From Streptomyces afghaniensis 772 (GTDB lineage: Bacteria; Actinomycetota; Actinomycetes; Streptomycetales; Streptomycetaceae): 32,043 bases of DNA. The DNA is taken from assembly GCA_000415505.1 (NCBI GenBank), contig KE354456.1, positions 1 through 32,043 on the forward strand, in the 5' to 3' direction. The notes under the pieces were generated by a model. That model saw nothing but the letters and a program-made list of their open reading frames with translations, was not told the origin of the DNA and made no database searches. Below, piece after piece: positions 1 through 17,882 of this stretch. How positions within the stretch are numbered: the stretch's first letter is position 1; each line of letters begins with the position of its first letter. The position numbers were made by a program, and so were the translations under genes.

Positions 1-754
1 CGGCCACCGCGGCGCCCTTGCGCGGCACGAGCCGGCCCAGCTGGAGCAGCCGGTGCGGGTACGGGCCGCGCGGTGCGGCCGGGCCCCTGGGGGTGAACCG
101 GTCCGGGTCGACGCCGCACGGCACGATGCCGATCTTGTGCGGGGGTATGCCCATGCGGGTCAGTTCGGCGGCCTCGTCCCGGCAGGTGGCGACGACGCGG
201 TCGCAGCCCAGCCCGATCTCGATCTCGCCGGGGATCCGCTCGGGCGGGCTGGTGTCGGCGAGGCGCTGGTGCCGTCGCTTCACGGTGCCGAGGGCGTGGT
301 ACGTGTGCAGCAGGGGCAGCCCGTGCGCGCGGGTCGCGCGCAGTGCGGCCAGGCCCGACATCCAGTAGTGCGAGTGCACGAGGTCGGGGGCCCGGGTGCG
401 CCAGCCGCGCTCCAGGTACCGGCCGAACTCGTCCATGTACGGCAGGAGTTCGTCCTTGGGGAGCGGCTCGGCCGGTCCGGCGGGGACGTGGTGCACCTCG
501 ACGCCGTCGCGCAGCTCCACCCGGCAGGGCAGGTCGGGCGCGTCCCGGCGGGTGTAGACGGTGACGCGGTGACCGCGGTCGGCGAGCGCCCCGGCGAGGC
601 AGGCGACGTGGACGTTCTGCCCGCCGGCGTCGACCCCGCCGAGCGCGGCGAGCGGACTCGCGTGCTCCGAGACGAGCGCGATCGCGAGGACGCCCGGGTC
701 GAGGGGGTCGCCGTCGAGCGGTCCGGTGGGGAAGGGGCTGAGGGACGGGGTCAT
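1..754 (-). CDS. GT4-family glycosyltransferase, 3' end beyond window
   Basis: A retaining GT-B glycosyltransferase of family 4, transferring a sugar from a nucleotide donor to an unknown acceptor in the cytoplasm. About 251 N-terminal codons are present and the rest lies left of position 1. The N-terminal half shows the family pattern: a glycine-rich acceptor loop (GGVDAGGQNVHV, near residue 38) as in MshA/sucrose-synthase-like enzymes, then HSHYWMSG and HTYHALG, and at the window edge GRLVPRKG, which begins the donor-binding domain. The ATG overlaps the stop of the preceding glycosyltransferase in an ATGA (751-754), so it is translationally coupled and is the last visible gene of the glycan operon. 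The family is clear; donor and acceptor cannot be read from sequence. Confidence 0.85.
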   Translation of the reverse strand, partial: MTPSLSPFPTGPLDGDPLDPGVLAIALVSEHASPLAALGGVDAGGQNVHVACLAGALADRGHRVTVYTRRDAPDLPCRVELRDGVEVHHVPAGPAEPLPKDELLPYMDEFGRYLERGWRTRAPDLVHSHYWMSGLAALRATRAHGLPLLHTYHALGTVKRRHQRLADTSPPERIPGEIEIGLGCDRVVATCRDEAAELTRMGIPPHKIGIVPCGVDPDRFTPRGPAAPRGPYPHRLLQLGRLVPRKGAAVA

Positions 755-1720
755 GAGCACACCTCCGTGATCAGGCGCTCCCAGTCGGCCAGGAAGCGCT
801 TGAGCCCATAGCGTTCGAGGGCCGCCTGCCGGGCCCGGGCTCCGTCCGCGGCCGCGGCCTCGGGTTCGTGGAGGTAGCGGCGGGCGACGCGGGCCAGGAC
901 GTCGGGGCGGGTGGAGAGGGTGCCCGCGCCGGGCGGGACGGCCTCGACGGCGCCGGTGGTGGCGAGGGCCAGGACGGGCAGGCCGAGGTGCATCGCCTCC
1001 AGCAGGGACAGGCCGAGCGAGGTCCAGCGCGACCGGGTGCAGGTAGAGTGCGGCGTTCGGCCAGCGCCGTGTGCCAGCTCGCTCGTGCGGCAGGTCGGCG
1101 GTGCGGCACCGGTCGGGTGGCAGGGCGAGCCGGCCGGCCAGGCCCTCGGTGCCCATGCCGAACACGTCGAGCGGTACCGCCTCGGCCAGGGTGGGCAGCA
1201 GGTCCGTGCCGGTGTACCGGGCGCGTCGCACGGGTTCGTTGACGACGACCGCGGCGCGCGCGAGCCGGCCGGTGTAGCGGTGGCCCGGGTCGACGATGCC
1301 GTGTTCGACGACCTCGGTCCGGGTGGTTCCGCAGTCCCAGAACAGCCGGTTGAAGTGCGTGACGTGCACGATCGTCAGATCGGCGCGGTCGGCGCACGGA
1401 TGCCGGGTGTCCGGTACGTCGCCGTCGGGCGCGTTGTGCTCCAGGTACAGCGCGGGCACGTCCCGGCCGGGGCGGCGTCCGCCGAGCCAGCGTTCGGCCA
1501 GCTCCGGTTCGTGCGGCCGTTGCAGGAGGACCAGGTCGACGGGCGTGTCGCGGAGTTCCCCGGGGGTGACCTCGCGGACCGAGGGGGGCCAGGAGAAGGT
1601 GCGGGCCCGTCCGAGGCCGTCCGGGTCGCGGCCCGGGGTGACGGGGACGACGTAGGTGTGCGGGCCCTGGACGAACGCGGTCGTCCAGGAGCCGTGCACG
1701 TGCCACAGCAGGATGTTCAT
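751..1720 (-). CDS. GT4-like glycosyltransferase, frameshifted near 1030
   Basis: Cytoplasmic glycosyltransferase of GT-B type. It starts at ATG 1720 (MNILLWHVHGSWTTAF), which overlaps the previous gene's stop in an ATGA. The N-terminal part reads well to about 1035, ending in ALYLHPV. The conserved continuation RWTSLGLSLLEAMHLGLP, the donor-site glycine/EAM region of this subfamily, appears only after changing frame between about 1027 and 1034. It then runs cleanly to the TGA at 751-753. The span is 970 bases, one more than a multiple of three, so the net change is one extra or two missing bases. Both halves are well conserved, so an assembly error is more likely than decay; if the shift is real the donor-binding domain is lost. 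Confidence 0.75.
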
Positions 1721-2789
1721 ACGGCCGCTCCTCGCTCCGTCTGATCTCCCTGGTCCGCCGGGTCGCCGGCGAGGGCAGCCACGGCGGCGAGCACCTCGGC
1801 GTCGCCGATGCCGTCCAGGCAGGGGTGTCCCGGCACCGGGCAGTGCCGGGCCCGGGTGTCCGCGCAGGCGGCGTGCCGGTCGCCCAGCAGGACGTGCGGC
1901 ACTCCGTAGGGAGCCCACTGTTCGGCCGGCACGACCGGTGCGAAGAGACTGACGACGGGTGTGCCGACGGCGGCGGCGAGATGGGCCGGGCCGGTGTTCC
2001 CGGCCACCACGGCCCGTGCCCCGGCGAGGACTCCGGCCAGGTGCGGCAGGTCGGTGGCGCCGCCGAGGTCCAGCGCGTGCCGTCCGGCGACCCGCGCGGT
2101 CAGCTCCCGCTCGGCGCGGCCCCCGGTGACGACGACCCGGTATCCCTCGGCGGACAGGACGGCGACGGCACGCGCCGCCCGGCCGGGCGTCCAGGCCCGG
2201 GCGGGGACGGCGGCGCCTGGGTGGACGACGACGTACGGCTCGGGGCCGGTGAGGTGGAGGGTGTGGGGCGGCGGGGTGACGCGCAGCCCGCCGTCGTCGC
2301 CGGGCGGAAGGGCGTAGCCGGCGGCGCGTGCCAGGTCGAGGGCGGCCAGGGCCTCGTGGCGGTGCGGCGGTCTGCGGTGGCGCAGGTCGAGCAGCACGCC
2401 GGGGTAGTCCTCGCTGTCGGCGGCGGTCCAGCCGATCCCGGCGAGCCTCAGCAGCAGGGCGATCGGCAGCGGGCTCTGGTGGTACGACACGAGGACGAGC
2501 GCCCGGTCGAAGCGGCCCGCCGTGAGCGTCTCCATCAACCGGCGGGTGGCCGTCCGGGTGACGGGCGGGGGCTCCAGCCCGACCCAGGGGGCGTCGTAGA
2601 TCAGCACGTCGTCCGCCCCGGGCAGCATCCGCCCCGCCGCGGCGCCCTGCGGCCCGCACAGCAGCGCGGTGTACGACGACCCGGCCGCGACCGCCCGCAC
2701 GGCGGGCCCGGCCAGGAGCACGTCTCCGGCGCTGTCGAGACGGACGACGAGAGTCCGGGGCAGGCGGCTGCGGGAACGGAAGGGGTCAT
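1717..2789 (-). CDS. GT9 heptosyltransferase-like glycosyltransferase
   Basis: Family 9 (ADP-heptose:LPS heptosyltransferase-like) glycosyltransferase. Visible motifs are TLVVRLDSAGDVLLAGPAV at the N-terminus, VVHPGAAVPARAWTP in the middle, and the family hallmark GNTGPAHLAAAVGTPVVSLF followed by PAEQWAPYG. A C-terminal cysteine-rich stretch (CADTRARHCPVPGHPC) is also present. It ends in an ATGA overlap with the next gene. The start is uncertain. The main frame offers only a distant GTG at 2892, whereas an ATG at 2789 (MTPSVPAAA) sits one frame away in the expected position. The span 2789-1717 is one base short of a multiple of three, so I infer one missing base at about 2750-2775. Donor is probably an ADP- or GDP-heptose given the neighbouring heptose phosphatase; this is inference. 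Confidence 0.82.
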
Positions 2790-3548
2790 CGCGGCTCCCC
2801 CGTGGCAGGGCGGGTGGCCGCGCGGTGCCGCCGCCGGCGCGGCCGGGTGACGGCGCGGTGCGCCGGCCGGCCCGGCCGGGCTGCTCCGCCACTCCCCCGT
2901 CGCCGTACCGGGATTCCGTCGTGGCTGTCCCGCCGGCGCAGCGGCGGGGGCCGGGTCGAGGACGAGGCGAACCGCAGCGAGCAGGTCGGCCGCCGTGGTG
3001 TCGGCGCCCGCGGTCTCCTCAAGGCGGGTGGCGGTCGTGGGGACCAGGATGCCGCGGGCCCCGGCGGCGCGCGCGGCCTCCACGTCGGCCCCGATGTCGC
3101 CGATGACGACGGTGCGTCCGGGCGGGACGGCGAGTCTGCGGCACGCGGCCAGTACCAGGCCGGGGGCCGGTTTGCGGCAGCCGCAGCCCTCCCCCGGCCC
3201 GTGCGGGCACACGGCCCACACGTCGAACGGCCCGAGCAGCTCCTCCACCCGCAGGCGTACGTCCTCGACCTGGCGAGGAGTCAGCAGGCCGCGGGCCACG
3301 CCCGACTGGTTGGTCACGACACCGACGGGAATCCCGGCGGCGCGCACGGCGTCCACGGCCTCCCGCGCGCCGGGCATGAGCGCGACCCGCGACGGGTCAC
3401 CGTTGTAGGGGACGTCGGCGACGAGCGTGCCGTCGCGGTCGAAGAGGACAGCCGCGGGGAGCGGGCCGCCCGGGTCGTGCGGGGGCTGCCGTACGCCGGT
3501 GGGCCCGTTCCGCCCGGAGAGCAGCCAGGGGCCGGTGGGGCGGGTCAT
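2786..3548 (-). CDS. gmhB: HAD-IIIA phosphatase, GmhB-like (heptose bisphosphatase)
   Basis: Probable D-glycero-D-manno-heptose 1,7-bisphosphate 7-phosphatase, which removes one phosphate in NDP-heptose synthesis. Motif I is FDRDGT (residues 36-41), then VVTNQSG (motif II), CRKPAPG (motif III) and GDIGADVEAA (motif IV). The Zn loop CPHGPGEGCGC (Cys-x-His...Cys-x-Cys), typical of GmhB, is present. The ATG at 3548 overlaps the stop of the GT2 gene (ATGA). The catalytic domain ends by about 2930; the proline/arginine-rich tail is unreliable. In the starting frame the reading runs on into the GT9 gene and looks like a shadow of it. A change of frame would end at TGA 2786-2788, overlapping the GT9 ATG as elsewhere in this operon. 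The exact 3' end is therefore inferred. Confidence 0.78.
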
Positions 3549-4618
3549 GACCGCAGCCGTTCCCTGACCGCCGGGCGGGGCGCGGGCGTCGGCTCGCCGG
3601 TCCCGAGCGGAGTGAGCGGCCGGGCCCCACGGTGCGCGAGTCGCCCGCGCAGCCAGTGCCAGGTCGCGGCCGGCGGGATGAGCGCGCTGGTCACGGCCAT
3701 GGTGAGCACCTCGTCACGGCTGCGCGGCCCGGGCAGGATCCGGGCCAGGGCGAACTCGGCCGTGCCGGCCAGCCATGCGGCGGCGCAGGCCCCGGCCGGT
3801 CGGTGCCGGCCGAGCAGGGCGCAGCCGAGCGCCGTCACCCCCGCACCGGTCAGGGCCAGGTGCAGGGGCAGCCGCCCGCGGGGCGCCTGCGCCCGGCGCC
3901 ACCAGTGGCGGCCGTGCAGCCGGGTCATCAGCACGTCGTCGGCGTTGCCGGCCTGGAGACGGACGGAGGTCCAGCGACCGGCCGGCCGCACGGGGTGGGC
4001 GGTGGTGCGCCGGCCCCCGGTGAGGGTCCAGCCGGCGTCGAGGATGCGCAGGGCCAGGTCGGCGTCCTCCCGGAAGGCCCGCCGGAAGCGCTCGTCGAAT
4101 CCGCCGACGGCGGCCAGCGCGGCCCGGCGGTACGCCATGTCGGCGGTGATCCAGCGGGCGCCGGCGAGTCCGGCCGTGTTGCGTTCCCAGTCGGTGGGTC
4201 GGCGGTCGGCGGGCAGCGGCACCTCGATCCGGGCGGTGATCCCGGCGGTCCACTCGGTCGCCGCGGACAGGTCGAGCGTCAGGTCGTCGCCCCAGGTGGG
4301 CCCGGGTACGACGTCGTCGTCGAGGAAGACGATCCAGGGCACGTCACCGGCCGCCCGCCAGCCGAGGTTGCGAGCAGCGGCCGGTCCGCGCGCCCCGCCG
4401 GGTACGACGAGGGTGCGCGAGCGCAGGGACGGCGGGACGTCGGCGGTGAGGGGCGGGCGGTCCGGGCCGGGCCGGTCGTCGACGACGACCACCCGGACGG
4501 GCCCCGGTCCGCTCGCCTCGGCCAGGGCGTGCAGGCACACGCGCAGGCTGGGCCGGCCGAGGGTCGGGACGACGACGGCGTACTCGGCGTCCCGGGCGCG
4601 GGCGTGGGGCTCGGTCAT
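3545..4618 (-). CDS. GT2-family glycosyltransferase, membrane-associated
   Basis: Inverting family 2 glycosyltransferase of 357 residues. The GT-A fold is shown by YAVVVPTLGRPSLRVCLHAL near the N-terminus, VVVDDRP, and the DxD metal/nucleotide motif in IVFLDDDVVPG. The acceptor-side GGFDERFRRAFREDADLALR carries the usual ED motif. Hydrophobic stretches toward the C-terminus (HLALTGAGVTALGCALL and VLTMAVTSALIPPAA) suggest membrane association. The ATG at 4618 is chosen because it overlaps the carbamoyltransferase stop in an ATGA; the same frame stays open far upstream but only as a shadow of that gene. It is intact, and its end overlaps the HAD gene. Its acceptor is likely the same glycan or scaffold that the neighbouring GT9 and GT4 enzymes act on. 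Confidence 0.88.
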   Translation of the reverse strand: MTEPHARARDAEYAVVVPTLGRPSLRVCLHALAEASGPGPVRVVVVDDRPGPDRPPLTADVPPSLRSRTLVVPGGARGPAAARNLGWRAAGDVPWIVFLDDDVVPGPTWGDDLTLDLSAATEWTAGITARIEVPLPADRRPTDWERNTAGLAGARWITADMAYRRAALAAVGGFDERFRRAFREDADLALRILDAGWTLTGGRRTTAHPVRPAGRWTSVRLQAGNADDVLMTRLHGRHWWRRAQAPRGRLPLHLALTGAGVTALGCALLGRHRPAGACAAAWLAGTAEFALARILPGPRSRDEVLTMAVTSALIPPAATWHWLRGRLAHRGARPLTPLGTGEPTPAPRPAVRERLRS

Positions 4619-6279
4619 CGCAGGCCTCCGGCGTCCTCGGAACGGAACAGGTCGCCGCGGCGGACGGCGTACGGGCCGATGGCCAGCAGGTCGACGGGCG
4701 AGGAGCCGAAGCACTCCAGGGCGTCGCGCGGATCGTCGACCATGGGCCGGCCGGCCGTGTTGAGGCTGGTGTTGACGACGACGGGCAGCCCGGTGAGGTG
4801 CTCGAACTCGCCGAGCATGCGGGCCACCAGCGGTTCGCGGGCCGGGTCGACGGTCTGGATCCGGGCGGTGCCGTCGACGTGGACGACGGCGGGGATGCGG
4901 TCCCGCCAGGCCGGGGCGACATCGTGCACGAACAGCATGTACGGGCTGGGCAGCGGGCCGTCGAAGATCTCGGCGGCGCGGTCGGCGAGGACCATCGGGG
5001 CGACGGGCCGGAACTGCTCGCGGCCCTTGACGTCGTTGAGCCGCTCCAGGTTGCCGGCGTGGCCGGGGTGGGCGAGCAGGGAGCGGTGACCGAGTGCCCG
5101 GGGGCCGTACTCGGAACGCCCCTGGAACCAGGCGACGATCGCGTTGTCCGCCAGGGCGCGGGCGACAGTGGCGGCGATGTCCGGGGGCCGTTCGAAGGGT
5201 ACGGCGGCCGTCTTCAGCCAGGCTCCGAGCTCCGCGTCGGACCAGTCCCGGCCGAGGTCGGCGCCGGTCATGGGCTCCGGTTCGTCGCCCTCGCCGGCGG
5301 ACAGCAGCAGGGCGCCGCCCAGGGCGGTACCGGCGTCTCCGGCGGCGGGCTGCACCCACACCCGCGAGAAGGGGCCCTCGCGTGCGATACGGGAGTTGGC
5401 GACGCAGTTGAGGGCGACGCCGCCGGCGAGCGTGAGCACCCGGTCGTGGGTACGGCCGTGCAGCCAGCGCACGAGGTCGAGCAGGGTCTCCTCCAGCACG
5501 GCCTGGGCGCTGGCGGCGACGTCGGCGTGGTCCTGCGTCCACGGCTCGTCGGACCTGCGCGGCGCGCACAGCTCCCGCCACGGCACGCCGGTGGCGTGGA
5601 AGCCGCCGTCGCCGGTGGGGTACACGTGGCGGCGCAGCTCGGTGAGCATGCGCGAGGTGCCGTGGGAGGCGAGGGCCATCACCTTGAACTCGTCGCAGGA
5701 GCGCAGGAAGCCGAGGTGTTCGGTGAGTTCCTCGTAGACCAGGCCGAGCGAGTGCGGCAGGTCCTGGGCGTGCAGCGCTTCCAGCCGGTTCCCCACGCGG
5801 CGGGCGGCCAGGTGGGAGGCGCGTTCGCCGCGGCCGTCGAGGACCAGGACGGAGGAGTCGCCGGCGTCCGGTGCGGCGAAGGCGCCGGAGGCGGCGTGGG
5901 CCATGTGGTGGGGCACGAAGCGGACGATGCCGGGGGCGAGGCCGGGCAGGGCCGTCCGCAGGAAGCCGGGCGCCTCACGGGCGTAGATCAGCCGCAGGTG
6001 GTCCCACGGGTCGTCCAGGCCCATGTCCTCGGCGGGCCGTGCGAGTGCCGGATCGAAGGAGTAGGTGACCGCGTCGAGGTCCTGCGGTCGCAGCCCGGCC
6101 CGCTTCAGGCACCAGGCGGCGGCCTTCTCGGGCAGCTCCCAGGCGGAGAACGGCAGGGGTCTCTTCCCGTGCTTGCGCCGGGAGAACCGCTCCTCCTCCG
6201 CGGCGGCGACGGTCCGCCCGTCGATCACCAGGGCGGCGGCGGGGTCGTGGAAGAGGGCGTTGATTCCGAGGATGCGCAT
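4615..6279 (-). CDS. O-carbamoyltransferase (NodU/CmcH family)
   Basis: Transfers a carbamoyl group from carbamoyl phosphate, through a carbamoyl-adenylate made with ATP, to a hydroxyl on a sugar or small molecule. It has 554 residues, the usual length of NodU, CmcH and TobZ. The N-terminal Kae1-like ASKHA domain begins MRILGINALFHDPAA and carries the metal-binding HHMAH at residues 124-128. It continues with LVLDGRGERASH (about 145-156) and GGVALNCVANSRI. The C-terminal carbamoyltransferase domain has EYGPRALGHRSLLA, KGREQFRPVAPMVL and VVNTSLNTAGRPMV. The ATG at 6279 is preferred over the in-frame upstream 6330 because homologues begin at MRILGI and an AAAGG site lies upstream. It is 70 bp downstream of the epimerase gene and overlaps the GT2 gene. 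No broken motifs. The carbamoylated substrate is probably a sugar made by this operon. Confidence 0.93.
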   Translation of the reverse strand: MRILGINALFHDPAAALVIDGRTVAAAEEERFSRRKHGKRPLPFSAWELPEKAAAWCLKRAGLRPQDLDAVTYSFDPALARPAEDMGLDDPWDHLRLIYAREAPGFLRTALPGLAPGIVRFVPHHMAHAASGAFAAPDAGDSSVLVLDGRGERASHLAARRVGNRLEALHAQDLPHSLGLVYEELTEHLGFLRSCDEFKVMALASHGTSRMLTELRRHVYPTGDGGFHATGVPWRELCAPRRSDEPWTQDHADVAASAQAVLEETLLDLVRWLHGRTHDRVLTLAGGVALNCVANSRIAREGPFSRVWVQPAAGDAGTALGGALLLSAGEGDEPEPMTGADLGRDWSDAELGAWLKTAAVPFERPPDIAATVARALADNAIVAWFQGRSEYGPRALGHRSLLAHPGHAGNLERLNDVKGREQFRPVAPMVLADRAAEIFDGPLPSPYMLFVHDVAPAWRDRIPAVVHVDGTARIQTVDPAREPLVARMLGEFEHLTGLPVVVNTSLNTAGRPMVDDPRDALECFGSSPVDLLAIGPYAVRRGDLFRSEDAGGLR

Positions 6280-6349
6280 GGGGTGGCGGGCCTTTCGGCG
6301 GTCGGGAGAGAACCGGACGCGGCGGTGCAAGGACGCCCGGGCGCTGGGG

Positions 6350-7315
6350 TCAGTCGTCCGTTCCGTCCTCGCGGAACCAGGCGATGGTGCGCCGCAGCCC
6401 TTCCTCGGCGCGCACCTGCGGCTCCCAGCCGAGCTTGTCTCGGGCCAGCGTGATGTCCGGGCAGCGCACGGCCGGGTCGTCCACCGGGCGTTCGATGAAG
6501 CGGATCTCCGACGGGGAGCCGGCGAGTTCGACGACCAGCCGGGCCAGGTCGAGCATGGTGATCTCGGTCGGGTTGCCGATGTTGACGGGGCCGCGCATGC
6601 CGTGGGCGGCCGCCGCGAGGATGCCGCGCACGGTGTCGTCGACGTAGCACAGCGACCGGGTCTGGCGGCCGTCGCCGGTCACGGTGAGGGGCTCGCCGGC
6701 CAGGGCCTGCCGTACGAAGGTCGGCACGGCGCGTCCGTCGTGGCCGCGCATCCGCGGGCCGTAGGTGTTGAACAGCCGCACGATGCAGGTGTCGGTGCCG
6801 TGAGTGTCGGCGTGGGCGGTGGTCAGCGCCTCACCGAAGCGTTTGGCCTCGTCGTAGACGCTGCGCGGGCCGACCGGGTTGACGTTGCCCCAGTAGCGCT
6901 CGTCCTGGGGGTTCTGCTGCGGGTCGCCGTAGACCTCGGAGGTGGAGGCGAGGACGTAGCGGGCGCGGGAGGACCGTGCGAGTTCCAGGGCGTTGCGGGT
7001 GCCGAGGCTGCCCGTCTCCATGGTGTGCAGCGGCAGGCGCAGGTAGTCCGCGGGGGACGCCGGGGAGGCGAAGTGCAGGACGAGGTCGGGCGTTCGCTTG
7101 ATCCGCAGGCCCTCGGTGACGTTGGCCTGCACGAGTGTGAATCCGGGCCGTTCGAGCAGCGGGGATATGTTCTCGGGCCGGCCGGTGCTGAAGTCGTCCA
7201 CGCAGGTGACGGCCGCGCCCGCGTCCAGCAGGGCGGCGCACAGGTGGGAGCCGACGAATCCGGCGCCGCCCGTGACGACGGCGTGTTCCCAGCTCCGTGA
7301 GAGGGCGGTGGTCAT
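6350..7315 (-). CDS. NAD-dependent sugar-nucleotide epimerase/decarboxylase (SDR)
   Basis: Extended short-chain dehydrogenase of 321 residues acting on an NDP-sugar. The NAD-binding motif TGGAGFVGSH is at residues 15-24, the Ser/Thr lies in LASTSEVYGDP, and the catalytic YxxxK is YDEAK. The stretch WGNVNPVGPRSVYDEAKR closely resembles UDP-glucuronate decarboxylases (UDP-xylose synthases), more than dTDP-glucose dehydratases. A 4-epimerase acting on a heptose or hexose nucleotide remains possible. The ATG at 7315 is chosen over an in-frame ATG at 7342 because GGAGGAG lies about 6 bases upstream of it. It is the first gene of the leftward glycan operon, so a promoter should lie between 7316 and about 7500. 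Confidence 0.9.
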   Translation of the reverse strand: MTTALSRSWEHAVVTGGAGFVGSHLCAALLDAGAAVTCVDDFSTGRPENISPLLERPGFTLVQANVTEGLRIKRTPDLVLHFASPASPADYLRLPLHTMETGSLGTRNALELARSSRARYVLASTSEVYGDPQQNPQDERYWGNVNPVGPRSVYDEAKRFGEALTTAHADTHGTDTCIVRLFNTYGPRMRGHDGRAVPTFVRQALAGEPLTVTGDGRQTRSLCYVDDTVRGILAAAAHGMRGPVNIGNPTEITMLDLARLVVELAGSPSEIRFIERPVDDPAVRCPDITLARDKLGWEPQVRAEEGLRRTIAWFREDGTDD

Positions 7316-9027: not shown

Positions 9028-9351
9028 TTACCAGAACCTGCTGCTGAGAGCCGGCTGATGCGACAGTTCCACGGCGTCCCGCAGCCGCAGCGCGACGCTG
9101 ATGGTGGCACGCAGGGCGGAGGGCCGTACGGTCTGGGCGGTCTCGGTGGCCAGGACCAGCAGGCACGCGGCCGCCTGCTCGACGACCGGCACGGGGAGGA
9201 TGAAGTCGTTGTCGGCGGCGGCACGGAACGCCTTCAAGGGGATCGCGGCCCCGTCGATGGCCCGGTGCGCGGCCTGCTCCAGGTGCTGTGCGGCCTGTTC
9301 GCACACGGGGGCGGGCAGGGCGATGGTGCGCTGGAACGGTGAACTCGTCAT
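9028..9351 (-). CDS. Small unrecognised protein (107 aa)
   Basis: A 107-residue protein of unknown function. The composition is protein-like and largely helical (APVCEQAAQHLEQAAHRAID, then VPVVEQAAACLLVLATETAQ). Two similar segments, PAPVCEQAA and PVPVVEQAA, suggest an internal duplication. No signal peptide or metal motif. Start ATG 9351; a purine-rich GGGGGA lies about 12 bases upstream with CGGGGC closer. It converges with the 8468 gene (26-bp gap) and is divergent from the fructosamine-kinase-like gene. Codon bias supports it, but its small size leaves some doubt. Confidence 0.6.
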   Translation of the reverse strand: MTSSPFQRTIALPAPVCEQAAQHLEQAAHRAIDGAAIPLKAFRAAADNDFILPVPVVEQAAACLLVLATETAQTVRPSALRATISVALRLRDAVELSHQPALSSRFW

Positions 9352-9529
9352 GCCCCGACTGGTCCCCCGGCGGTGGCCGGTTCTGTCGGCGGGCGGCGGG
9401 ATTTCACCGTCCCGCGTGACCGGGGCGTGGCGAATGTCCCGGATCCGGCAAGGCCGGCTTCGGCGCCGTCCCCTGGGGCGTGCCCCTACTCTGAGTGTCG
9501 ATCAGGCCCGGAGCCGAGGAGGAGCGTGT

Positions 9530-10384
9530 ATGACCACCCGTACGGATGCCGTGGCCCGGCTCACCGGGCGGGCGGTCACCGGGGAACGGCCCCTGTCCGG
9601 GGCCCTCGCCGAGGTGACGCTCGACGACGGGCGGGTGGTGATCGTCAAGCGCGTCGACGATCCGGGGGCGACGCGGGCCGAGGCGGCCGGGCTGCGCTGG
9701 CTGGCCGGGGCCGGCACGGTGCGGGTACCGGCCGTGCACGGCCACGACGCGCACTGGCTGGTCGTCGACCGGGTCGAGCAGGGGCGGCCGAGCCGGGAGG
9801 CGGCGGTCCGCTTCGGCCGCGACCTGGCCGCCCTGCACGCCGCCGGGGCGCCCGCGTTCGGCGCGCCGCCCCCGGGCGGACCGGCGGACGCCTACATCGG
9901 GCTCGCCCCGATGCGCAACGAGCCCCGCACCGACTGGCCGGGCTGGTACGCCGAGCATCGCGTGCTGCCGTATCTGCGGCGCGCGGTCGACCAGGGCACC
10001 GTCCAGCCCGGTGAGGCGACCGACGTTGAACGTCTGTGCGAGCGACTGCCGGAGCTGGCGGGGTCCGCCGAGCGGCCCGCGCGGCTGCACGGCGACCTGT
10101 GGAACGGCAACGTGCTGTGGGCGGCGGACGGGGACGTCCGGCTGATCGACCCGGCCGCGCACGGCGGACACCGCGAGACCGACCTGGCGATGCTGCGTCT
10201 GTTCGGCTGCCCGCACCTGGACGAGGTGCTGGACGGCTACCAGGAGAAGGCGCCGCTCGCCGACGGCTGGACGGACCGCGTCGGCGTGCACCAGCTGTTT
10301 CCGCTGCTGGTGCACGCCGTGCTGTTCGGCCGGAGCTACGCGGAACAGGCCCTCGCGGTGGCCCGTACCGCCCTGGCGGGGTGA
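9530..10384 (+). CDS. Fructosamine-3-kinase family protein
   Basis: ATP-dependent kinase of the fructosamine/ketosamine-3-kinase family (284 residues), which in known members phosphorylates sugar adducts on amines to start deglycation. Seen in sequence: the ATP-anchoring lysine in VVIVKRVDD (Lys40), the catalytic loop HGDLWNGN at residues 187-194 (Asp189, Asn194), and LIDPAAHGGHRETDLA with the metal Asp207 in the DP form typical of this family rather than DFG. Start ATG 9530 is set by the strong GAGGAGGAG site just upstream; the frame is open earlier but not coding. It is a single gene, convergent with catalase with only 4 bp between the two stop codons. Family call is firm; the physiological substrate is unknown. 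Confidence 0.92.
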   Translation: MTTRTDAVARLTGRAVTGERPLSGALAEVTLDDGRVVIVKRVDDPGATRAEAAGLRWLAGAGTVRVPAVHGHDAHWLVVDRVEQGRPSREAAVRFGRDLAALHAAGAPAFGAPPPGGPADAYIGLAPMRNEPRTDWPGWYAEHRVLPYLRRAVDQGTVQPGEATDVERLCERLPELAGSAERPARLHGDLWNGNVLWAADGDVRLIDPAAHGGHRETDLAMLRLFGCPHLDEVLDGYQEKAPLADGWTDRVGVHQLFPLLVHAVLFGRSYAEQALAVARTALAG

Positions 10385-10388
10385 GCGG

Positions 10389-12047
<1,659 letters not shown>

Positions 12048-12078
12048 ATGCGTGGGCTCCTTCGGCTCATGGCCGGTG

Positions 12079-12093
12079 GCCGACCTGGTCGGC
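12079..12093. promoter_or_regulatory. Palindrome upstream of catalase
   Basis: GCCGAC, CTG, GTCGGC: perfect 6-bp arms, 32 bp before the catalase ATG on the minus strand. It could be an operator for a peroxide-responsive regulator or chance in GC-rich DNA; the sequence does not match a Fur-type box I know. Confidence 0.3.
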
Positions 12094-12112
12094 ACCGCGA
12101 GCGGCCGCCCGG

Positions 12113-12134
12113 CCGGGCGTGGCGGAACGCCCGG
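12113..12134 (-). terminator. Hairpin between the 12157-13509 gene and catalase
   Basis: CCGGGCG, an 8-base loop and CGCCCGG form a 7-bp stem beginning 23 bases past the stop codon of the minus-strand gene ending at 12157. It would separate that gene from the catalase promoter. No T tract. Confidence 0.4.
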
Positions 12135-12156
12135 GTACCCGGAGGGGCGGGGTCAG

Positions 12157-13509
12157 TCACCTGCCGGTCCCGCGCACCACGGACCAGACCTCCGCGAGCA
12201 GGGCCGGGTGGTTCTCGCCGTACGTGACGACGGCCGCGAACACCGCGTCGAGGGCCGCCCGGAGCGGGTCGGGTCCGGCGGCGTCGGTCACCGCGGGGAG
12301 GGCCATGTGCGGCTGCGACATCCGCACGTGTGGGTCCGGTGGGCCGAAGGTGACCGCCATGGCGTGCAGGCCGGAACCGGCGACCTGCGGTTTCGCCGCG
12401 GCGGACGAGCCGGAGCCGGCAACCTGCCGTATCGCCGAGGCGTACGGGCCGGAGCCGGAGGCCTGCGTTCTCGCCACGGCGGCCGCCGGGCCCACCACGG
12501 CTTGTGTGGCCTCCAGGGCTTGCGGCACGGGGGTGCCGGGGGACGCGGGCGGCCGGAAGGGAGGCCGCTCGGGCGGGACGGCCCGGCCGACGGTCCGGTC
12601 CGGGACACGCGGGTCGGTGGCCAGGGTCTCCCACATGCGGGTCTCGTCGTCGAACGGCGGCGGCAGCGGACGGCCTTCGGCCAGGGCCGTGAGCGCGTCG
12701 GCGACCCAGTCGAGGGCCGTGAGACCGGCCGCTTCACACGCCCGGCGGGCCGCGAACAGGGCCACCTCACGCTGGGTGGCCGGGCCGGAGGCGTCGATGG
12801 CGTGGACCAGGGCGGGGTCGAACTCGAGCAGGCCGCGGACGTTGCCGCCGACGTCCCGCAGGGCCTGGCTCGGCGGCTGTCCGCCCCATTGCCATCGTTC
12901 GAAGGCGAGCCGGCGTTCCCGTTCCGCCGTCTCCTGCGCGAGGCGGGCCTGGCGCTCGGCCTCGGCGCGTTCGGCGGGCGTGAGAGGCGGCGGCAGTTCG
13001 CGGGCGTAGCGGTGCCAGTAGGCGGCGGCCTGCGAAGTCTGCTTGAGAACACGGTCCGGCTCGGGCGGGGCGGGCCAGAACTGCAGGAGGTAGCAGTCGA
13101 GTCGGGGCTCGCCGTCCGTCCGGGTGTCCTGCTCGCTCGCCTGGTCCATGCCCCGGGCGCAGTACCGCACGCGGTAGTCGGTCTCCTCCAGATCGAGCTG
13201 CCAGGAGCCTCCCCCTCCCCATTCCACGAGCGCGCTGTCCGCCGACGCCGGACGGAAGGACACCTCCACCACGTCCTCCCAGGCCGGATCCAGCGGCGGC
13301 GCCTTCTCGTGCACCTCGACCGTGAAGCCCACCGAGCCGGTGTGCAGTCCGGTGTTCAGCCACAGGGCGCCCGGTGTCGCCGCTCCACAAAGTCCCGCAC
13401 TCTGCCCGGCGAACGCCTCCTCGAGACCCGGCCCGTAGCTGTCCGGATCGGTCTCGACGTAGATCTGGCCGTAGTGCACATGCACCTCTCCCTCGACCGG
13501 CCTGCGCAC
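12157..13509 (-). CDS. Unrecognised two-part protein with 13-residue repeats (450 aa)
   Basis: No function recognised. The N-terminal 150 residues look like a folded beta-rich domain (VHVHYGQIYVETDPDSYGPGL, GALWLNTGLHTGSVGFTVEV, DVVEVSFRP, YRVRYCARGMDQA). A charged linker follows (PLTPAERAEAERQARLAQET), then a helical domain with DASGPATQREVALFAARRAC. Next comes a proline-rich segment, then four tandem 13-residue repeats encoded at 12352-12507, and a short helical C-terminus. GTG 13509 is chosen as start because AAGGAG lies exactly 6 bases upstream. An ATG at 13563 is also in frame with a poorer site, and a GTG slightly downstream at VHVHYG is also possible. It is divergent from the kinase at 13606 with 96 bp between starts. 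No signal peptide or membrane segment is seen. Confidence 0.75.
   Translation of the reverse strand: MRRPVEGEVHVHYGQIYVETDPDSYGPGLEEAFAGQSAGLCGAATPGALWLNTGLHTGSVGFTVEVHEKAPPLDPAWEDVVEVSFRPASADSALVEWGGGGSWQLDLEETDYRVRYCARGMDQASEQDTRTDGEPRLDCYLLQFWPAPPEPDRVLKQTSQAAAYWHRYARELPPPLTPAERAEAERQARLAQETAERERRLAFERWQWGGQPPSQALRDVGGNVRGLLEFDPALVHAIDASGPATQREVALFAARRACEAAGLTALDWVADALTALAEGRPLPPPFDDETRMWETLATDPRVPDRTVGRAVPPERPPFRPPASPGTPVPQALEATQAVVGPAAAVARTQASGSGPYASAIRQVAGSGSSAAAKPQVAGSGLHAMAVTFGPPDPHVRMSQPHMALPAVTDAAGPDPLRAALDAVFAAVVTYGENHPALLAEVWSVVRGTGR
12352..12507 (-). repeat. Four tandem 39-bp coding repeats
   Basis: Four consecutive 13-residue units in the C-terminal part of the unknown protein: TQAVVGPAAAVAR, TQASGSGPYASAI, RQVAGSGSSAAAK, PQVAGSGLHAMAV. 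The second to fourth share Q-x-x-GSG with a following small-residue stretch; the first is more diverged. As DNA this is a 39-bp tandem array of four copies, likely length-variable between strains. Confidence 0.75.
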
Positions 13510-13605
13510 GATCAGCTCCTTATCGTCCGGGGATGGGATGGTGAGCTGTCGGCATCGTGGCATCCACCACTGACAATCAGAGCGCGATCACGGGAGAGCG
13601 GAAGC

Positions 13606-14220
13606 ATGCGGCACGTCTACTGGATCGGGGGCGGGAGCGGCGCGGGCAAATCCACGATCGCCCGCAGACTCGCCGATCGGCAGGGCTGGCGTCTGTACTC
13701 GACCGACGACGTGATGGGGGACCACGCCCGACGGACCACGCCCGACGAGGCCCCGTTCCTGCACGAGTTCATGGCCATGGACATGGACGAGCGCTGGGTG
13801 AACCGTTCTCCGGAGACCATGCTCAGGACGTTCCACTGGTTTCGCGGCGAGGGCTTCGGGCTGATCGTCGAGGACCTGCTGCGCATGCCACAGGAGACGT
13901 GTGTCGTAGTCGAGGGATTCCGCCTGCTGCCGCACCTCGTACAGCCCCTGCTCACCGAGCCCGGACACGCGGTCTGGCTCCTGCCCACACCGCGGTTCCG
14001 GCAGGCCGCGTTCACGGGCCGGGCCACGCCGGGAACGCGTTTCACGGAGAGGACCAGTGACCCGGAGCGGGCGAACCGCAACATCGCCGCACGGGACCGC
14101 CTGTTCACGGAACGCCTCCGCGAGGAGACCGCACGCCGCCAACTGCCCGCCGTCACGGTCGACCTCACGATGTCGGAGGACGAACTCGCCGAACGGGTGA
14201 GCGCGATCTTCCGGCTCTGA
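13606..14220 (+). CDS. P-loop kinase-like NTPase (204 aa)
   Basis: Small nucleoside/phosphotransfer kinase-like protein. The Walker A motif GGGSGAGKST is at residues 8-17 (Lys15), followed by YSTDDVMGDHARRT, a substrate/Mg-binding Asp pair typical of adenylate-kinase-like AAA_33 proteins. ETCVVVEGFRLLPHLV is the Walker B-like strand. Arginine-rich lid-like sequence (RFRQAAFTGRATPGTRF, then ERTSDPERANRNIAARDRLF) follows. ATG 13606 is fixed by GGGAGAG about 8 bases upstream. It stands alone, divergent from the repeat protein and ending in a strong bidirectional hairpin. The substrate is unknown; antibiotic or small-molecule phosphorylation and nucleotide metabolism are both possible. Confidence 0.85.
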   Translation: MRHVYWIGGGSGAGKSTIARRLADRQGWRLYSTDDVMGDHARRTTPDEAPFLHEFMAMDMDERWVNRSPETMLRTFHWFRGEGFGLIVEDLLRMPQETCVVVEGFRLLPHLVQPLLTEPGHAVWLLPTPRFRQAAFTGRATPGTRFTERTSDPERANRNIAARDRLFTERLREETARRQLPAVTVDLTMSEDELAERVSAIFRL

Positions 14221-14227
14221 CCTCTTG

Positions 14228-14277
14228 CCACGCGAAGGGCCCGGACCCCGCCCGCCGGCGGTGTCCGGGCCGCGTGG
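14228..14277. terminator. Strong bidirectional terminator hairpin
   Basis: GGCCCGGAC (14238-14246) pairs perfectly with GTCCGGGCC (14263-14271). An outer CCACGC/GCGTGG stem (14228-14233 with 14272-14277) extends the hairpin. It lies between two convergent genes, the kinase ending at 14220 and the small gene ending at 14291, and can serve both. Confidence 0.75.
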
Positions 14278-14290
14278 CCCCGGTGGGGCC

Positions 14291-14527
14291 TCAGCCGCCG
14301 TTGAGGCGTGCGCGCAGGAGGTTCTTGCCCAGTTCGGCACCCTTGCGGCTGTCCGCCTGGGCCTTGCGGAACAGGTCCGCGACCTCGGTGTCCTTGGCGC
14401 GCTCCGCGTCCTGGATGTAGCTCTCCAGACGCAGGGCGTTGTTCAGGCACGCCTCGACGTACCAGATCAGGTTGTAGTCCTTGTCCTGCGTACCGGTCAC
14501 GCCGCCGGTCTCCGTCTCGCTGGTCAT
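14291..14527 (-). CDS. Small acidic helical protein (78 aa)
   Basis: A 78-residue hypothetical protein that reads as genuine: a flexible Thr/Gly/Glu-rich N-terminus, then helices (YNLIWYVEACLNNALRLESY, AERAKDTEVADLFRKAQADS, KGAELGKNLL). No membrane or secretion signal; one cysteine. Start ATG 14527 has a textbook AAGGAGG site 6 bases upstream, the strongest in this part of the window, implying high expression. It is convergent with the kinase gene across the hairpin at 14228-14277 and divergent from the conservon. Function is unknown; the pattern suits a small helical-bundle protein. Confidence 0.85.
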   Translation of the reverse strand: MTSETETGGVTGTQDKDYNLIWYVEACLNNALRLESYIQDAERAKDTEVADLFRKAQADSRKGAELGKNLLRARLNGG

Positions 14528-14868
14528 TCGGACCTCCTTCGTGCGGAGCGGACCTCTTCAGGCGTCGGACGGGTACCCGTCCTCCGGTGGGACACACAGC
14601 CCACCCCCATCACGTTCCGCGACCATCCGGTTACGCACTCGACGAGCGGGTGGCCGGCCCGCCGGTCAGACCTGTACGCACCACCAACTCCCCTACCCCG
14701 TACGGCAATCCTGACAGTTGCCACAGAAGCGAACAGACCCTGGTCAGTTTCAGAACGAAGTGCCCTTCCACCGTGCGAGACCGGTCGATGACGGTGTGTA
14801 CTGTGCTGCGGGTGGCTCGTCAGAGCACCTCGGACTCCGCCCTGCCCACTCTCCCTGGACTCGATTCG
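14528..14868. other. Intergenic region upstream of conservon
   Basis: 341 bp between the divergent small gene and cvnA. No gene seen. It is less GC-rich than its surroundings (ACAGTTGCCACAGAAGCGAA near 14716), as expected of a promoter region. A possible -10 TACTGT is at 14799-14804, 65 bp before the chosen cvnA start, but I find no matching -35. If cvnA starts at the in-frame ATG 14788 this element would be inside the gene. Confidence 0.45.
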
Positions 14869-16511
14869 ATGATCGAACTACCGGACCTGGTCGTCGGCGG
14901 TCTCGCCGTCGGCACGCTGTCCGCGTTCGCCCTCGGCGGCGGGTTGCTGCGCTCGCGGCGGCGACTGGCCGTGCAGCGCGCGAAGATTGCCGCTTTGCGG
15001 GCCCAACTCGACGGCAACACGCGGGCGTTCACGGCCGAGATCGAGCACCTGGCGGCACGGCGCGTACCCGCCGCGGCCCGGCAGGTGGCCCATCCGCACG
15101 TCGCCGTGCCCGGCCCGCTCAGCCCGCAGCTCTCCGGTTCGCCCCTGGGCCTCGCGATGGAGCAGGTACTGAAGGGGCTGCACGCCGAACTCGCCGCGCA
15201 GCGCACCCGCATCGACGCCGCCGCGCAGGCCGGGATGCGCGGGGCCACGCGGGAGATCCAGGCGGCGCTGTACCGGCTGCAGGACGCCCTGCGCGGCCTG
15301 CAACAGCATTACGACGACCCCGAGTTGGCGCAGACCCTGTTCGAACTGGACCACGAGAACGAGCAGTCGCTGCGGCGCGCGCAGATCGCCGCGGTGGTGT
15401 GCGGGGCCTGGGTGGGGCTGGCCCGGGAGGAGTCGCACCTCGTGGACGCGGTGACGGGCGGTCAGGCCCGGCTCGCGGGCTACCGGCGCGTCCGGATCCA
15501 CAACCACCTTCAGGCCGGGACCGCCCTGGTGTCCCACGCCGTCGAGCCGGTCGCCATCATCGTCGCCGAGCTCCTCGACAACGCGCTGCGGCACTCCGCG
15601 CCCGACACCGACGTCGTGGTCAACCTGGAGGCCGTCCACCACGGCGTCTGCGTCACCGTGGACGACGCCGGGCTGGGCATGACGCAGGACGAACGGGCCC
15701 GTGCCCAGCGGATGGTGGCCGGCTCCGAACCCATCCTGCTCACCGAGCTGGGCGACCCGCCGCGCATGGGACTCGCCGCCATCGGCCGGCTGACCCGGCA
15801 GTTCGACCTGAGCGTGGACCTGTCCTCGCCGTCCCCGTACGGCGGGGTGCGGGCGGTGCTGCGGGTCGACAGTCACCTGCTGACCCGCATCGATCCCGAA
15901 GAACTGCCTCCGGCGGCCAGCGCCCCGCGTTCGACGCGCAGGGCGGAGCGGGGCACGGCGGGTGGTGGCGCGTCGGTCTCTGCCTCGTCCGAGGCGCCCG
16001 ATGCCGCTGAGGGGCCTGCCGCCCGGCCCGCCCCCGCCCGTGCATCCGAACCGGCCCCGGCCACCGCGTCCGACGGCTGCGAGCCGCGCACCGCGCCCCG
16101 GAACCCCGAGCCCCCGTCCCCACCGCGGCGGCCCGCTCCACCGCACCCGATGACCACGGCTACGGCACGGACCAGGGCGACCAGGCCTCCACCCCGGCCC
16201 CCGGCCACCACGGCCCCCGTGACAACGGCGGACTCCCCCAGCGGCGTCGCCGCAGCCGGGCCACGCCGCCGCTGGACACCCCGGCCGCCGCCCCCGCGCC
16301 CGCACCGCAGCGCCGACCGCGGCGTCCCGAGGAGTCCGCCGCCGCCCTCGGCGCCCTCCAGTCCGGCACGGCGGCCGCACGTTTCGCCGCCCGGCCGAAC
16401 ACCGGCGCCCCTCCAGCCGTACCTGAGGGTGCCCCGGCCGCGACCACGGCCGACGGGCCTGACGACACCGGCCGAGACCGGAACGACCACGAAGGGGGAA
16501 CGGCTCGATGA
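14869..16511 (+). CDS. cvnA: Conservon sensor kinase-like protein CvnA, frameshifted tail
   Basis: Membrane-anchored histidine-kinase-like protein, first component of a conservon. One transmembrane helix (residues about 7-27), then a coiled coil, an H-box-like LDHENEQSLRR (His about 162), N-box AELLDNALRHS (Asn about 238) and G1 box DDAGLGMT. A long Pro/Ala-rich tail follows. It lacks the large extracellular sensing region of bigger CvnA proteins. The tail must change frame between about 16012 and 16135: only then does it give the NGGLPQRRRRSRATPP tail typical of CvnA and end at TGA 16509-16511, overlapping the cvnB ATG. The span is one base short of a multiple of three. Start ATG 14869 is a choice by protein quality; ATG 14788 is in frame and neither has a good ribosome site. 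Confidence 0.85.
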
Positions 16512-16930
16512 CCAGCCGCGCAACGGGGGACACGGCCTGGGTGCTCGAACCGGTTCTGGAGGTGCCGCACGTCGTGGCCGCCGTCCTGCTCACCCGGGAC
16601 GGGCTCGTGACCGGTTACACCGACGCGCTGTCGCAGCCGTCGGCCGAGCGGGTCGCCGCCATCACCAGCACCGTGCAGGGCGCCTGCCGTACCGCGGCGG
16701 CGGCGTTCGCCGACACCGACCGGGCCGACATCCGGCAGGTCGTCATCGAGTCGGACCACGGCTATGTGCTCATCGTGCCGACCGACCACGGCACCTGCGT
16801 CGCCGCGTACGGCGACCCCGAGGTGCGCCTGGACCTGCTCGCGCACCGGGTGCACTCGCAGGTCGCGCGGCTGGGCGAGAAGGCGATGGCCGCCGGGCCC
16901 CGAGGTGCCGACGGCGACACGCCGGCATGA
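16508..16930 (+). CDS. cvnB: Conservon roadblock/LC7 protein CvnB
   Basis: A 140-residue Roadblock/LC7-domain protein. In studied conservons CvnB binds the kinase-like CvnA and the GTPase CvnD in a membrane-associated complex and is thought to modulate GTPase state, like MglB with MglA. Seen here: the domain start WVLEPVLEVPHVVAAVLLTR, DGLVTGYTDALSQPSAERVA, and the second half RQVVIESDHGYVLIVPT with GTCVAAYGDPEVRLDLL. The ATG at 16508 overlaps the cvnA stop (ATGA) and has AAGGGGGAA upstream. The end overlaps cvnC by ATGA. It is intact. Confidence 0.93.
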   Translation: MTSRATGDTAWVLEPVLEVPHVVAAVLLTRDGLVTGYTDALSQPSAERVAAITSTVQGACRTAAAAFADTDRADIRQVVIESDHGYVLIVPTDHGTCVAAYGDPEVRLDLLAHRVHSQVARLGEKAMAAGPRGADGDTPA

Positions 16931-17289
16931 CCGGCCGCCGAGGCGGCCGCCCCCTGGTTCCCGCGTATCTGTCGACCGGCGGGGTGGCCCGGCCCAGCCG
17001 TGCCCACCTGGAGCGGCTGTCGGTCCTCACCGGCAGCGGCGAGCCGGCTCCCGCCGATCTGCCCGCCGCGCAGGCGGCCCTGCTGGAGGAGCTGGAGTAC
17101 GGGTCGCTGACGCTGGTGGAGGCCGCGGCCCTGCTGCGGCTGCCCGTCTCCGCCGTGCTGGTGCTGGCCGACGGCCTCATCGACCGTGACCTGGTGCTGG
17201 CCCGCGCGCCGATCCCGCCCGCCCGGCGCTTCGACCCCGACCTGCTGAAGAGAGTGGCCGATGGCCTCCGCGACCTCAAGCGCCGTTGA
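16927..17289 (+). CDS. cvnC: Conservon DUF742 protein CvnC
   Basis: A 120-residue DUF742 protein. Family features seen: RPLVPAYLSTGG near the N-terminus, followed by LEELEYGSLTLVEAAALLRLP, a winged-helix-like segment, then VLVLADGLIDRDLVLARAPIP and the C-terminal DLLKRVADGLRDLKRR. Its biochemical role is not settled; in conservons it belongs to the CvnA-D complex. The ATG overlaps the cvnB stop, and its 3' end overlaps cvnD by 29 bp, so all four proteins are likely made in fixed ratio. It is intact. Confidence 0.92.
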   Translation: MTGRRGGRPLVPAYLSTGGVARPSRAHLERLSVLTGSGEPAPADLPAAQAALLEELEYGSLTLVEAAALLRLPVSAVLVLADGLIDRDLVLARAPIPPARRFDPDLLKRVADGLRDLKRR

Positions 17290-17882
17290 CGCCGCCGGCG
17301 GCGGTGGCATCCATCTCCCGGACACCGCCCGCGACCTGGTGAAGATCCTGGTCACGGGGCCTTTCGGGGTGGGCAAGACCACCCTGATCGGCTCGGTGTC
17401 GGAGATCCGCCCGCTGCACACGGAGGAACAGCTCACGGAGGCGTCCGCGCAGGTCGACGATCTCGCCGGGTCCGGGACAAGTCGACCACCACGGTCGCCA
17501 TCGACTTCGGCCGGATCAGCCTGCCGGCGGGATCGTGCTCTATCTGTTCGGCACGCCCGGCCAGGAGCGGTTCCGGTCGCTGTGGGACGACATCGCCCAC
17601 GGCGCGCTCGGCGCGCTCGTGCTGGTCGACGCCCGCCGGATCGACGCCTCGTTCGACGTGCTGGGGCTGGTGGAGGAGACCGGGCTGCCGTACGCGGTGG
17701 CCTTCAACACCTTCCCGGACGCGCCCCGGCACCACACCCCCGAGCAGTTGCGCGCCGCTCTGGACCTGGAACCGACGACCCCGATGGTGACCTGCGACGC
17801 GCGGGAGGCGAACTCCTCGATCGACGCCCTGCTCGCCCTCGTCCAGCACCTGATCGACCACCGACCCGCGGAGCACCGGTGA
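17261..17882 (+). CDS. cvnD: Conservon small GTPase CvnD, two frameshifts
   Basis: Ras/MglA-like small GTPase switching between GTP and GDP forms. The P-loop GPFGVGKTT is intact in the first frame. The G3 region LFGTPGQERFRSLWDD (a conservon-type variant of DxxGQE) and later VLVDARRID are in another, with VAIDFGRISLPAG in the third. Two single missing G bases explain it exactly: DLAG-VRDKSTTTV requires GGGG where GGG stands at 17468-17470. LPAG-IVLYLFG requires GGGG where GGG stands at 17529-17531. The span is two bases short of a multiple of three. ATG 17261 has GAAGAGAG upstream; the stop overlaps the first P450 start (GTGA). With these corrections the protein is about 207 residues, normal for CvnD. 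Confidence 0.87.

Follow-up and report, generated by a model that had tools for sequence, protein, structure and literature searches.

The cwg-type operon of Streptomyces afghaniensis 772 and its predicted O-carbamoylated, heptose-containing glycan

What would an actinobacterium make with an O-carbamoyltransferase set among enzymes of heptose type? The question is raised by one end of a 32,043 nt stretch of Streptomyces afghaniensis 772 (contig KE354456.1, here C751, of assembly GCA_000415505.1), referred to as a whole as the window. Seven genes, cwgA to cwgG, lie there on the minus strand, all in the same direction. An earlier note on this DNA had named these seven genes as one operon, likened it to the sugar genes of bleomycin clusters, and proposed as its product a carbamoylated heptose- or hexose-derived glycan. 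We consider it fairly probable that the product of the operon is a surface glycan that is O-carbamoylated and contains heptose and probably xylose. With gmhA and hldE now found in the genome, a carbamoylated surface glycan derived from heptose is the best reading of the earlier proposal. The analysis covers gene content, homology, the conservation of motifs and of phyletic pattern, and the complementary content of two paralogous types of operon. The genes of the window, with SDR for short-chain dehydrogenase/reductase, UDP for uridine diphosphate, GT for glycosyltransferase (with its family number) and HAD for haloacid dehalogenase, are as follows.

cwgA: 6350..7315, minus strand, NAD-dependent SDR of the UDP-glucuronate decarboxylase (UDP-xylose synthase, UXS) type
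cwgB: 4615..6279, minus strand, class III (NodU/CmcH) O-carbamoyltransferase, 554 aa
cwgC: 3545..4618, minus strand, GT2 glycosyltransferase, 357 aa (PF00535, 40 bits)
cwgD: 2786 (about)..3548, minus strand, GmhB-like HAD-IIIA phosphatase
cwgE: 1717..2789, minus strand, GT9 (heptosyltransferase fold), ATG at 2789
cwgF: 751..1720, minus strand, GT4-fold glycosyltransferase, frame-shifted in the window around 1031-1085
cwgG: 1..754, minus strand, N-terminal part of a GT4 related to MshA and sucrose-phosphate synthase (SPS), running off the contig

Fetched loci are labelled L and genomes G, with G000 the genome of S. afghaniensis itself, L003 the locus of S. coeruleorubidus, L094 contig C366 and L107 contig C806.

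The heptose pathway beyond the contig end

The earlier note proposed looking to the left of position 1 for the heptose genes gmhA and hldE. Both were found when the genome itself was searched, on contig C366, with the gmhA match at 2563-3012 and the match to the HldE kinase domain at 3090-3932. The order on C366 is F, G, H (gmhA) and I (hldE, in two pieces), and whole G through I occupies C366:1070-4473. A gene on the opposite strand (L094:4486-5796) follows I, like the major facilitator superfamily (MFS) transporter that follows I in S. coeruleorubidus. The two heptose genes also occur in those relatives whose stretch reaches that far. Among 80 loci fetched by CwgB similarity, 54 exceed 21 kb, and 35 of these keep A through I unbroken and in the same order, so that the order is more than chance. 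The commonest architectures among the 54 are ABCDEFGHIJ (17) and ABCDEFGHI (7).

The coupling of nearly all genes by ATGA, as described in the earlier note, is borne out. Plain ATGA overlaps are present at four junctions (F/G, E/F, C/D and B/C), and A is separated from B by 70 bases. ATGA is also present at D/E, where small insertions or deletions (indels) relative to S. coeruleorubidus shift both frames and extend the cwgD frame of the window to 2601. These shifts, together with the two pieces of hldE on C366 and the absence of J-L from the locus, could be taken as signs of an operon in decay. However, window positions 1-1823 were assembled twice, recurring as the start of C366 (L094, 1-1817) at 99.4% identity over 1,823 bp with several 1-base indels. 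The contig ends of GCA_000415505.1 are unreliable. In the C366 copy cwgF reads through the shift point of the window and is shifted elsewhere, the catalytic motifs are intact, and relatives carry intact operons with full-length cwgF. Contig-end sequence error is the likely explanation of the frame shifts in F and at D/E; genuine decay is very improbable, and a real pseudogene is unlikely.

Homology supplies a candidate enzyme for every step from sedoheptulose-7-phosphate to a nucleoside diphosphate (NDP)-heptose, with GmhA, HldE kinase, GmhB and HldE adenylyltransferase each having a candidate by homology and motifs. CwgH matches GmhA by profile and motif. CwgI of L003 matches HldE over residues 8-452, which includes both domains, and its adenylyltransferase domain passes the curated cut-off (184.8 versus 181.5). 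The best solved relative of CwgD is GmhB (4pnh, 77 bits), and PRK08942 scores 104 bits against a cut-off of 178. The DRDGT and C..H..C.C motifs of CwgD are near-invariant in 75 copies. CwgE exceeds the cut-off of PF01075 (82.5 bits). The AlphaFold2 model of CwgE from L003 has a mean predicted local distance difference test score (pLDDT) of 90, and its top nine matches in the Protein Data Bank (PDB) are all GT9 (3tov, WaaF 1psw and WaaC). The best families for both the HAD (CwgD) and the GT9 (CwgE) are heptose ones, at scores below the NCBIfam cut-offs. For HldD, the 6-epimerase that yields the L,D form, there are 12 matches in the genome, none over the cut-off and the best at 113 of 274.6 bits, so the D,D form of heptose is expected. 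The strict STTR5 promiscuity motif, taken from the available part of PMC11573728, is present in 3 of 76 CwgI sequences over 400 residues, and the arginine of GRSTT in 66 of 76 non-gap rows.

The gene labelled epimerase/decarboxylase in the earlier note is present, although its more specific likeness had been missed. Human UXS1 is the solved protein closest to CwgA in sequence, with 316 bits over 308 residues against 140 bits for the best match outside the UXS type. CwgA was also considered as HldD and this was ruled out, UXS1 being far closer than TIGR02197 (68 bits). CwgB has PF02543 and PF16861, the Kae1-like and C-terminal domains, and its solved relatives in the PDB (NovN-type, TobZ and GdmN) are all remote. 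H11, H124, H125, H128, D148 and D315 are present in 103 of 103 copies. CwgB thus carries both domains, the metal His/Asp and the base His of class III O-carbamoyltransferases, with residue roles assigned by motif likeness to GdmN as described in the accessible text of PMC9633730, not by superposition.

Among the remaining glycosyltransferases, the C-terminal piece of CwgF matches PF00534, and GT4 folds (BshA and SPS) rank first for its L003 model (pLDDT 89.9). The window CwgG matches PF13439 (126 bits), and CwgG of L003 matches TIGR03449, MshA, at 242 bits, below the cut-off of 462. CwgJ of relatives is a second GT9, and CwgK and CwgL resemble GT2-type enzymes. The motifs of CwgA are near-invariant in up to 98 copies, and those of A, B, D, E, H, I and J are near-invariant at the expected catalytic places (from 103 copies for B down to 60 for J).

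Taken together, these identities would allow the following scheme, in which each enzyme activity, the site and target of carbamoylation, the acceptor, the location at the surface and the product are predictions. CwgH, CwgI and CwgD, as GmhA, HldE and GmhB-like enzymes, would convert sedoheptulose-7-phosphate to an NDP-D,D-heptose donor, and CwgA would convert UDP-glucuronate to UDP-xylose. CwgE (GT9), CwgC (GT2), CwgF and CwgG (GT4), and the second GT9 CwgJ, which here lies on another contig, would build a short glycan containing heptose and probably xylose. The GT9 enzymes would act as heptosyltransferases and CwgB would place the carbamoyl on the glycan, which would most likely be part of the cell envelope. 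The heptose glycan is favored because the pathway is complete by homology, because of the GT9 fold and the UXS identity, and because of the phyletic coupling and complementary gene contents described below. The envelope is favored because a paralogous operon is tied to envelope stress in the accessible text of PMC6767563.

Two paralogous cwg operons in Streptomyces

The cwg operon was reportedly first described by Hong et al. in 2002. In S. coelicolor it comprises twelve genes (SCO6179-6190) and is described in the available part of PMC6767563 as a vancomycin-induced sigmaE target. The window operon is, by its sequence relationships, a type-1 paralogue of this operon, a relationship that the earlier note had missed. 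The sigmaE target was already known; the separate paralogous type is new. In a tree of 50 CwgB sequences, a selection of the copies at hand (25 type 1 with the window, 7 type 2 and 18 from other genera), the type-1 and type-2 Streptomyces clades each have 100/100 support and the window falls in type 1.

The published promoter was searched against 392 Streptomyces genomes and gave six matches with at most two mismatches, one of them exact (G257). Five of the six loci were fetched (all but that of G163). Four of the five have A-L in order with a CwgB 75-76% identical to that of the window, among them L114, which has the exact promoter and a CwgB 76% identical. In the fifth, L116 (G147, 2578-5598), the promoter has one mismatch, and C and G are the sole cwg genes after it and in the whole stretch; the G147 genome gives no CwgB match. 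The operon of the window does not have the type-2 set A-L, but A-I in order over C751 and C366, then the opposite-strand gene, and no J-L at the locus. A type-2 remnant is present in the same genome on C806 (L107, 8151-9885), with J and D adjacent and E-I missing between them; the search there did not extend to K and L. In S. coeruleorubidus, A-I of type 1 coexist with a full type 2. G001 carries a reduced type-1 locus together with two complete type-2 loci (L101 and L102), three cwg loci in all.

Eight genomes with a type-1 locus lacking the GmhB-like and GT9 genes were searched for GT9, and in seven of the eight a GT9 is encoded elsewhere in the genome (none in G005). Second loci were fetched for G001, G002, G003, G007 and G008 (of the seven, all but G004 and G006), and G001, with its two full A-L type-2 loci, stands outside the count that follows. 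In each of the other four genomes, A, B, C, G, H and I lie at the type-1 locus (joined by F in one genome). D, E and J lie at the type-2 locus, where C, F and K-L are each found in three of these genomes. The reduced type-2 locus holds most of the genes missing from the reduced type 1. Over twelve genes and four genomes, 43 of 48 slots are filled once, three twice and two not at all (K and L in one genome), where the 50 residues that remain of B in L105 are scored as absent, and absence refers to the fetched stretch rather than to the genome.

Such a pattern could arise by coincidence, or by block deletions in one lineage, if types 1 and 2 make different glycans. S. coeruleorubidus keeps a full type 2 along with A-I of type 1, and G001 keeps two full type-2 loci along with a reduced type 1. 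The four genomes belong to one genus and the losses are of contiguous blocks, so the events need not be independent and the Fisher value of 4e-8, which treats the slots as independent, overstates the case. Against this stands the predominance of single-copy slots itself, and we regard separate glycans as unlikely. With genes lost in complementary fashion from the two loci, annotating or deleting one locus alone would overlook some of the pathway in certain species.

Distribution and competing readings

In a draw of 382 Streptomyces genomes, CwgB was found in 130 (E<=1e-100), CwgI in 131 (E<=1e-50) and GT9 in 139 (E<=1e-8). CwgB and CwgI occur together in 122, B alone in 8, I alone in 9 and neither in 243 (Fisher 8e-78), and all three proteins are found in 121. 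Two of the B-only genomes, G113 and G349, are assemblies of more than 1,400 contigs, and the B of G244 is only 45% identical. The nine genomes with an HldE relative and no CwgB at these thresholds are G049, G071, G080, G121, G177, G184, G199, G360 and G382; eight have a listed match, 39-54% identical to CwgI, and these relatives may belong to other heptose pathways.

The coupling bears on which residue is carbamoylated. Heptose could be made and used while CwgB acts on another residue, xylose or hexose, of the same glycan. A and B remain together at loci from which the heptose genes are gone (L165 and L166), and a locus outside Streptomyces, L160, retains only A, B, C and J. The strong co-occurrence of B with HldE speaks for heptose as the target, as does the carbamoyl on heptose in Pseudomonas, according to the accessible text of PMC8005017. 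Carbamoylation of another residue is a possibility that we hold at rather less than even, though above the other alternatives considered here.

Beyond Streptomyces, 101 of 394 genomes drawn from the class have a carbamoyltransferase match at E<=1e-60, in 43 of 137 genera, a count that includes non-cwg matches below 48% identity. Identities are at least 62% or at most 47%, with a gap between, so the upper part of the matches is cwg-like. Eighteen loci outside Streptomyces, from 10 families and 15 genera, were compared; 12 have all of A-J and 16 have seven or more of these genes within 20 kb, the order varying between loci. A short-chain dehydrogenase lies between I and J at L144:15073-15771 (Pfam, for L144 only), and also in L145-L148 and L150. 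A UDP-glucose dehydrogenase follows J at L144:16550-17998 (Pfam) and is also found in L145 and L146; beside the module it would supply UDP-glucuronate for CwgA.

A second alternative has the operon producing a small molecule or glycolipid with a carbamoyl group, such as a bleomycin- or septacidin-like product or an inositol-based glycolipid, in place of a cell-wall glycan. No polymerase or exporter was recognised in the operon, and CwgG resembles MshA, which glycosylates inositol phosphate. Class III carbamoyltransferases are moreover known from many secondary metabolites, as described in the available part of PMC9633730. The wide conservation over genera and the description of the type-2 operon as a sigmaE and vancomycin target (PMC6767563, accessible text) point the other way. 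The earlier note had stated that the window holds no nonribosomal peptide synthetase (NRPS) or polyketide synthase (PKS), and none was recognised among the window proteins searched, which include ten open reading frames (ORFs) outside the operon, nor when the ORFs of L003 were read through. In three loci whose carbamoyltransferase is 39-40% identical to CwgB, one of which adjoins an NRPS gene, there is no other operon homologue at E<=1e-4. We therefore set aside the resemblance to bleomycin sugar clusters, on grounds of gene context, the lack of NRPS/PKS and the remoteness of the carbamoyltransferase relatives, rather than by direct comparison with the bleomycin proteins. A small molecule or glycolipid as product is doubtful, about one chance in several.

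In L162 (G024, 9147-19046), a carbamoyltransferase 39% identical to CwgB has nearby an NRPS gene 1,933 codons long, with condensation, AMP-binding and thioesterase domains by Pfam. Elsewhere in the window, a fructosamine-kinase family protein is encoded upstream of the operon (9101-10384), and the binding protein and permease of an ATP-binding cassette (ABC) transporter lie at the right contig end (29203-31565).

Several observations weigh against the proposed carbamoylated heptose glycan. No flippase, polymerase or ligase was recognised that would point to a surface location. Scores fall short of the curated cut-offs for the NCBIfam equivalog models of GmhA, whole HldE, the kinase domain, GmhB and the heptosyltransferases; among the pathway models, only the cut-off of the adenylyltransferase domain is exceeded. 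The shared GT9 motif has Asn in CwgE (73 of 73) versus Asp in CwgJ (59 of 59), at a position that we take to matter for the donor; because Asn replaces Asp, CwgE may use another donor, and the difference suggests two donor or acceptor specificities. In the nearly closed genome G118, a shortened C persists with A and B, and neither HldE nor GT9 is matched at the thresholds applied. In L155, B stands without any further cwg gene within 20 kb, and the reduced gene set of L160 counts here as well. Because the genes of an operon tend to be passed on as a set, their co-occurrence does not by itself prove that B acts on heptose.

Regulation is a further such point. A relaxed sigmaE motif, AAC-N15-18-C[AG]TCTT, was sought within 400 bp upstream of A and is present in none of 76 type-1 regions, the window included (0.08 in shuffles). 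It is present in six of seven type-2 regions, four of the seven having been fetched by the promoter itself, and in two of the three others. As the sigmaE-type promoter of type 2 was not detected ahead of the type-1 operons, type 1 cannot simply be credited with the link of type 2 to stress, and sigmaE control of type 1 in the manner of type 2 is unsupported. The looser strict-core motif AAC-N15-18-CGTC occurs at varied positions in 12 of 76 type-1 regions (11 of 75 loci and the window) versus 4.6 in shuffles, and some sigmaE input to type 1 may exist.

Relationship to known systems

For two decades the cwg operon has been recognised as a sigmaE target that vancomycin induces. In the literature found, as far as its accessible text goes, the product is named only as a predicted or putative cell-wall glycan, and a search of an open library gave no paper that links the operon with carbamoylated heptose. 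The genes present speak for a definite chemistry of NDP-D,D-heptose, UDP-xylose and O-carbamoylation. More tentatively, and with the odds against it, Actinobacteria may share a module like that of the lipopolysaccharide (LPS) core, which would make a stress-regulated, O-carbamoylated D,D-heptose and xylose oligosaccharide of the envelope, with nearly each step encoded once between the two paralogous operons of Streptomyces. If the chemistry read from the genes is right, heptose glycans of the LPS kind would be a normal part of many Gram-positive envelopes. These bacteria would also hold NDP-heptoses, which are sensed by vertebrate ALPK1 (PMC11573728, available part).

Compared with cwg of S. 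coelicolor, the window-type operon has H and I at the positions of cwgH and cwgI, which the tables of PMC5839063 give as phosphoheptose isomerase and bifunctional synthase/transferase. The same tables list cwgD as a putative dehydratase, which does not agree with the GmhB-like phosphatase at position D here. Type-2 operons differ in having J-L, which are not at the locus of the window. L100 has a polysaccharide deacetylase beside A; none was noticed beside A at the locus of the window.

Bleomycin-family clusters contain a carbamoyltransferase, NDP-sugar enzymes and a GT9-like transferase, a set that the earlier note had seen in the window operon too. Unlike them, the window operon has a heptose pathway and no recognised NRPS/PKS. 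The heptose genes of septacidin and hygromycin B and the tridomain NDP-heptose synthetases, known here from titles cited in PMC11573728 and PMC10948575, share the sedoheptulose-7-phosphate route in actinobacteria. The window-type operon differs from these natural-product systems in having a didomain HldE and a separate GmhA among glycosyltransferases.

A further likeness is to Pseudomonas. The accessible text of PMC8005017 describes an LPS-core heptose that bears a carbamoyl (13C signal near 159 ppm), assigned to the putative carbamoyltransferase WapO, which occurs with heptosyltransferases; WapO and CwgB are likened here by description, not by sequence. The Pseudomonas structure is the LPS core of a Gram-negative bacterium, whereas the window is from an actinobacterium and has UXS-like, GT2 and MshA-like enzymes, with no HldD above the cut-off. 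The predicted glycan is comparable to the Pseudomonas LPS core, which is a precedent for the pairing of a carbamoyltransferase with heptose.

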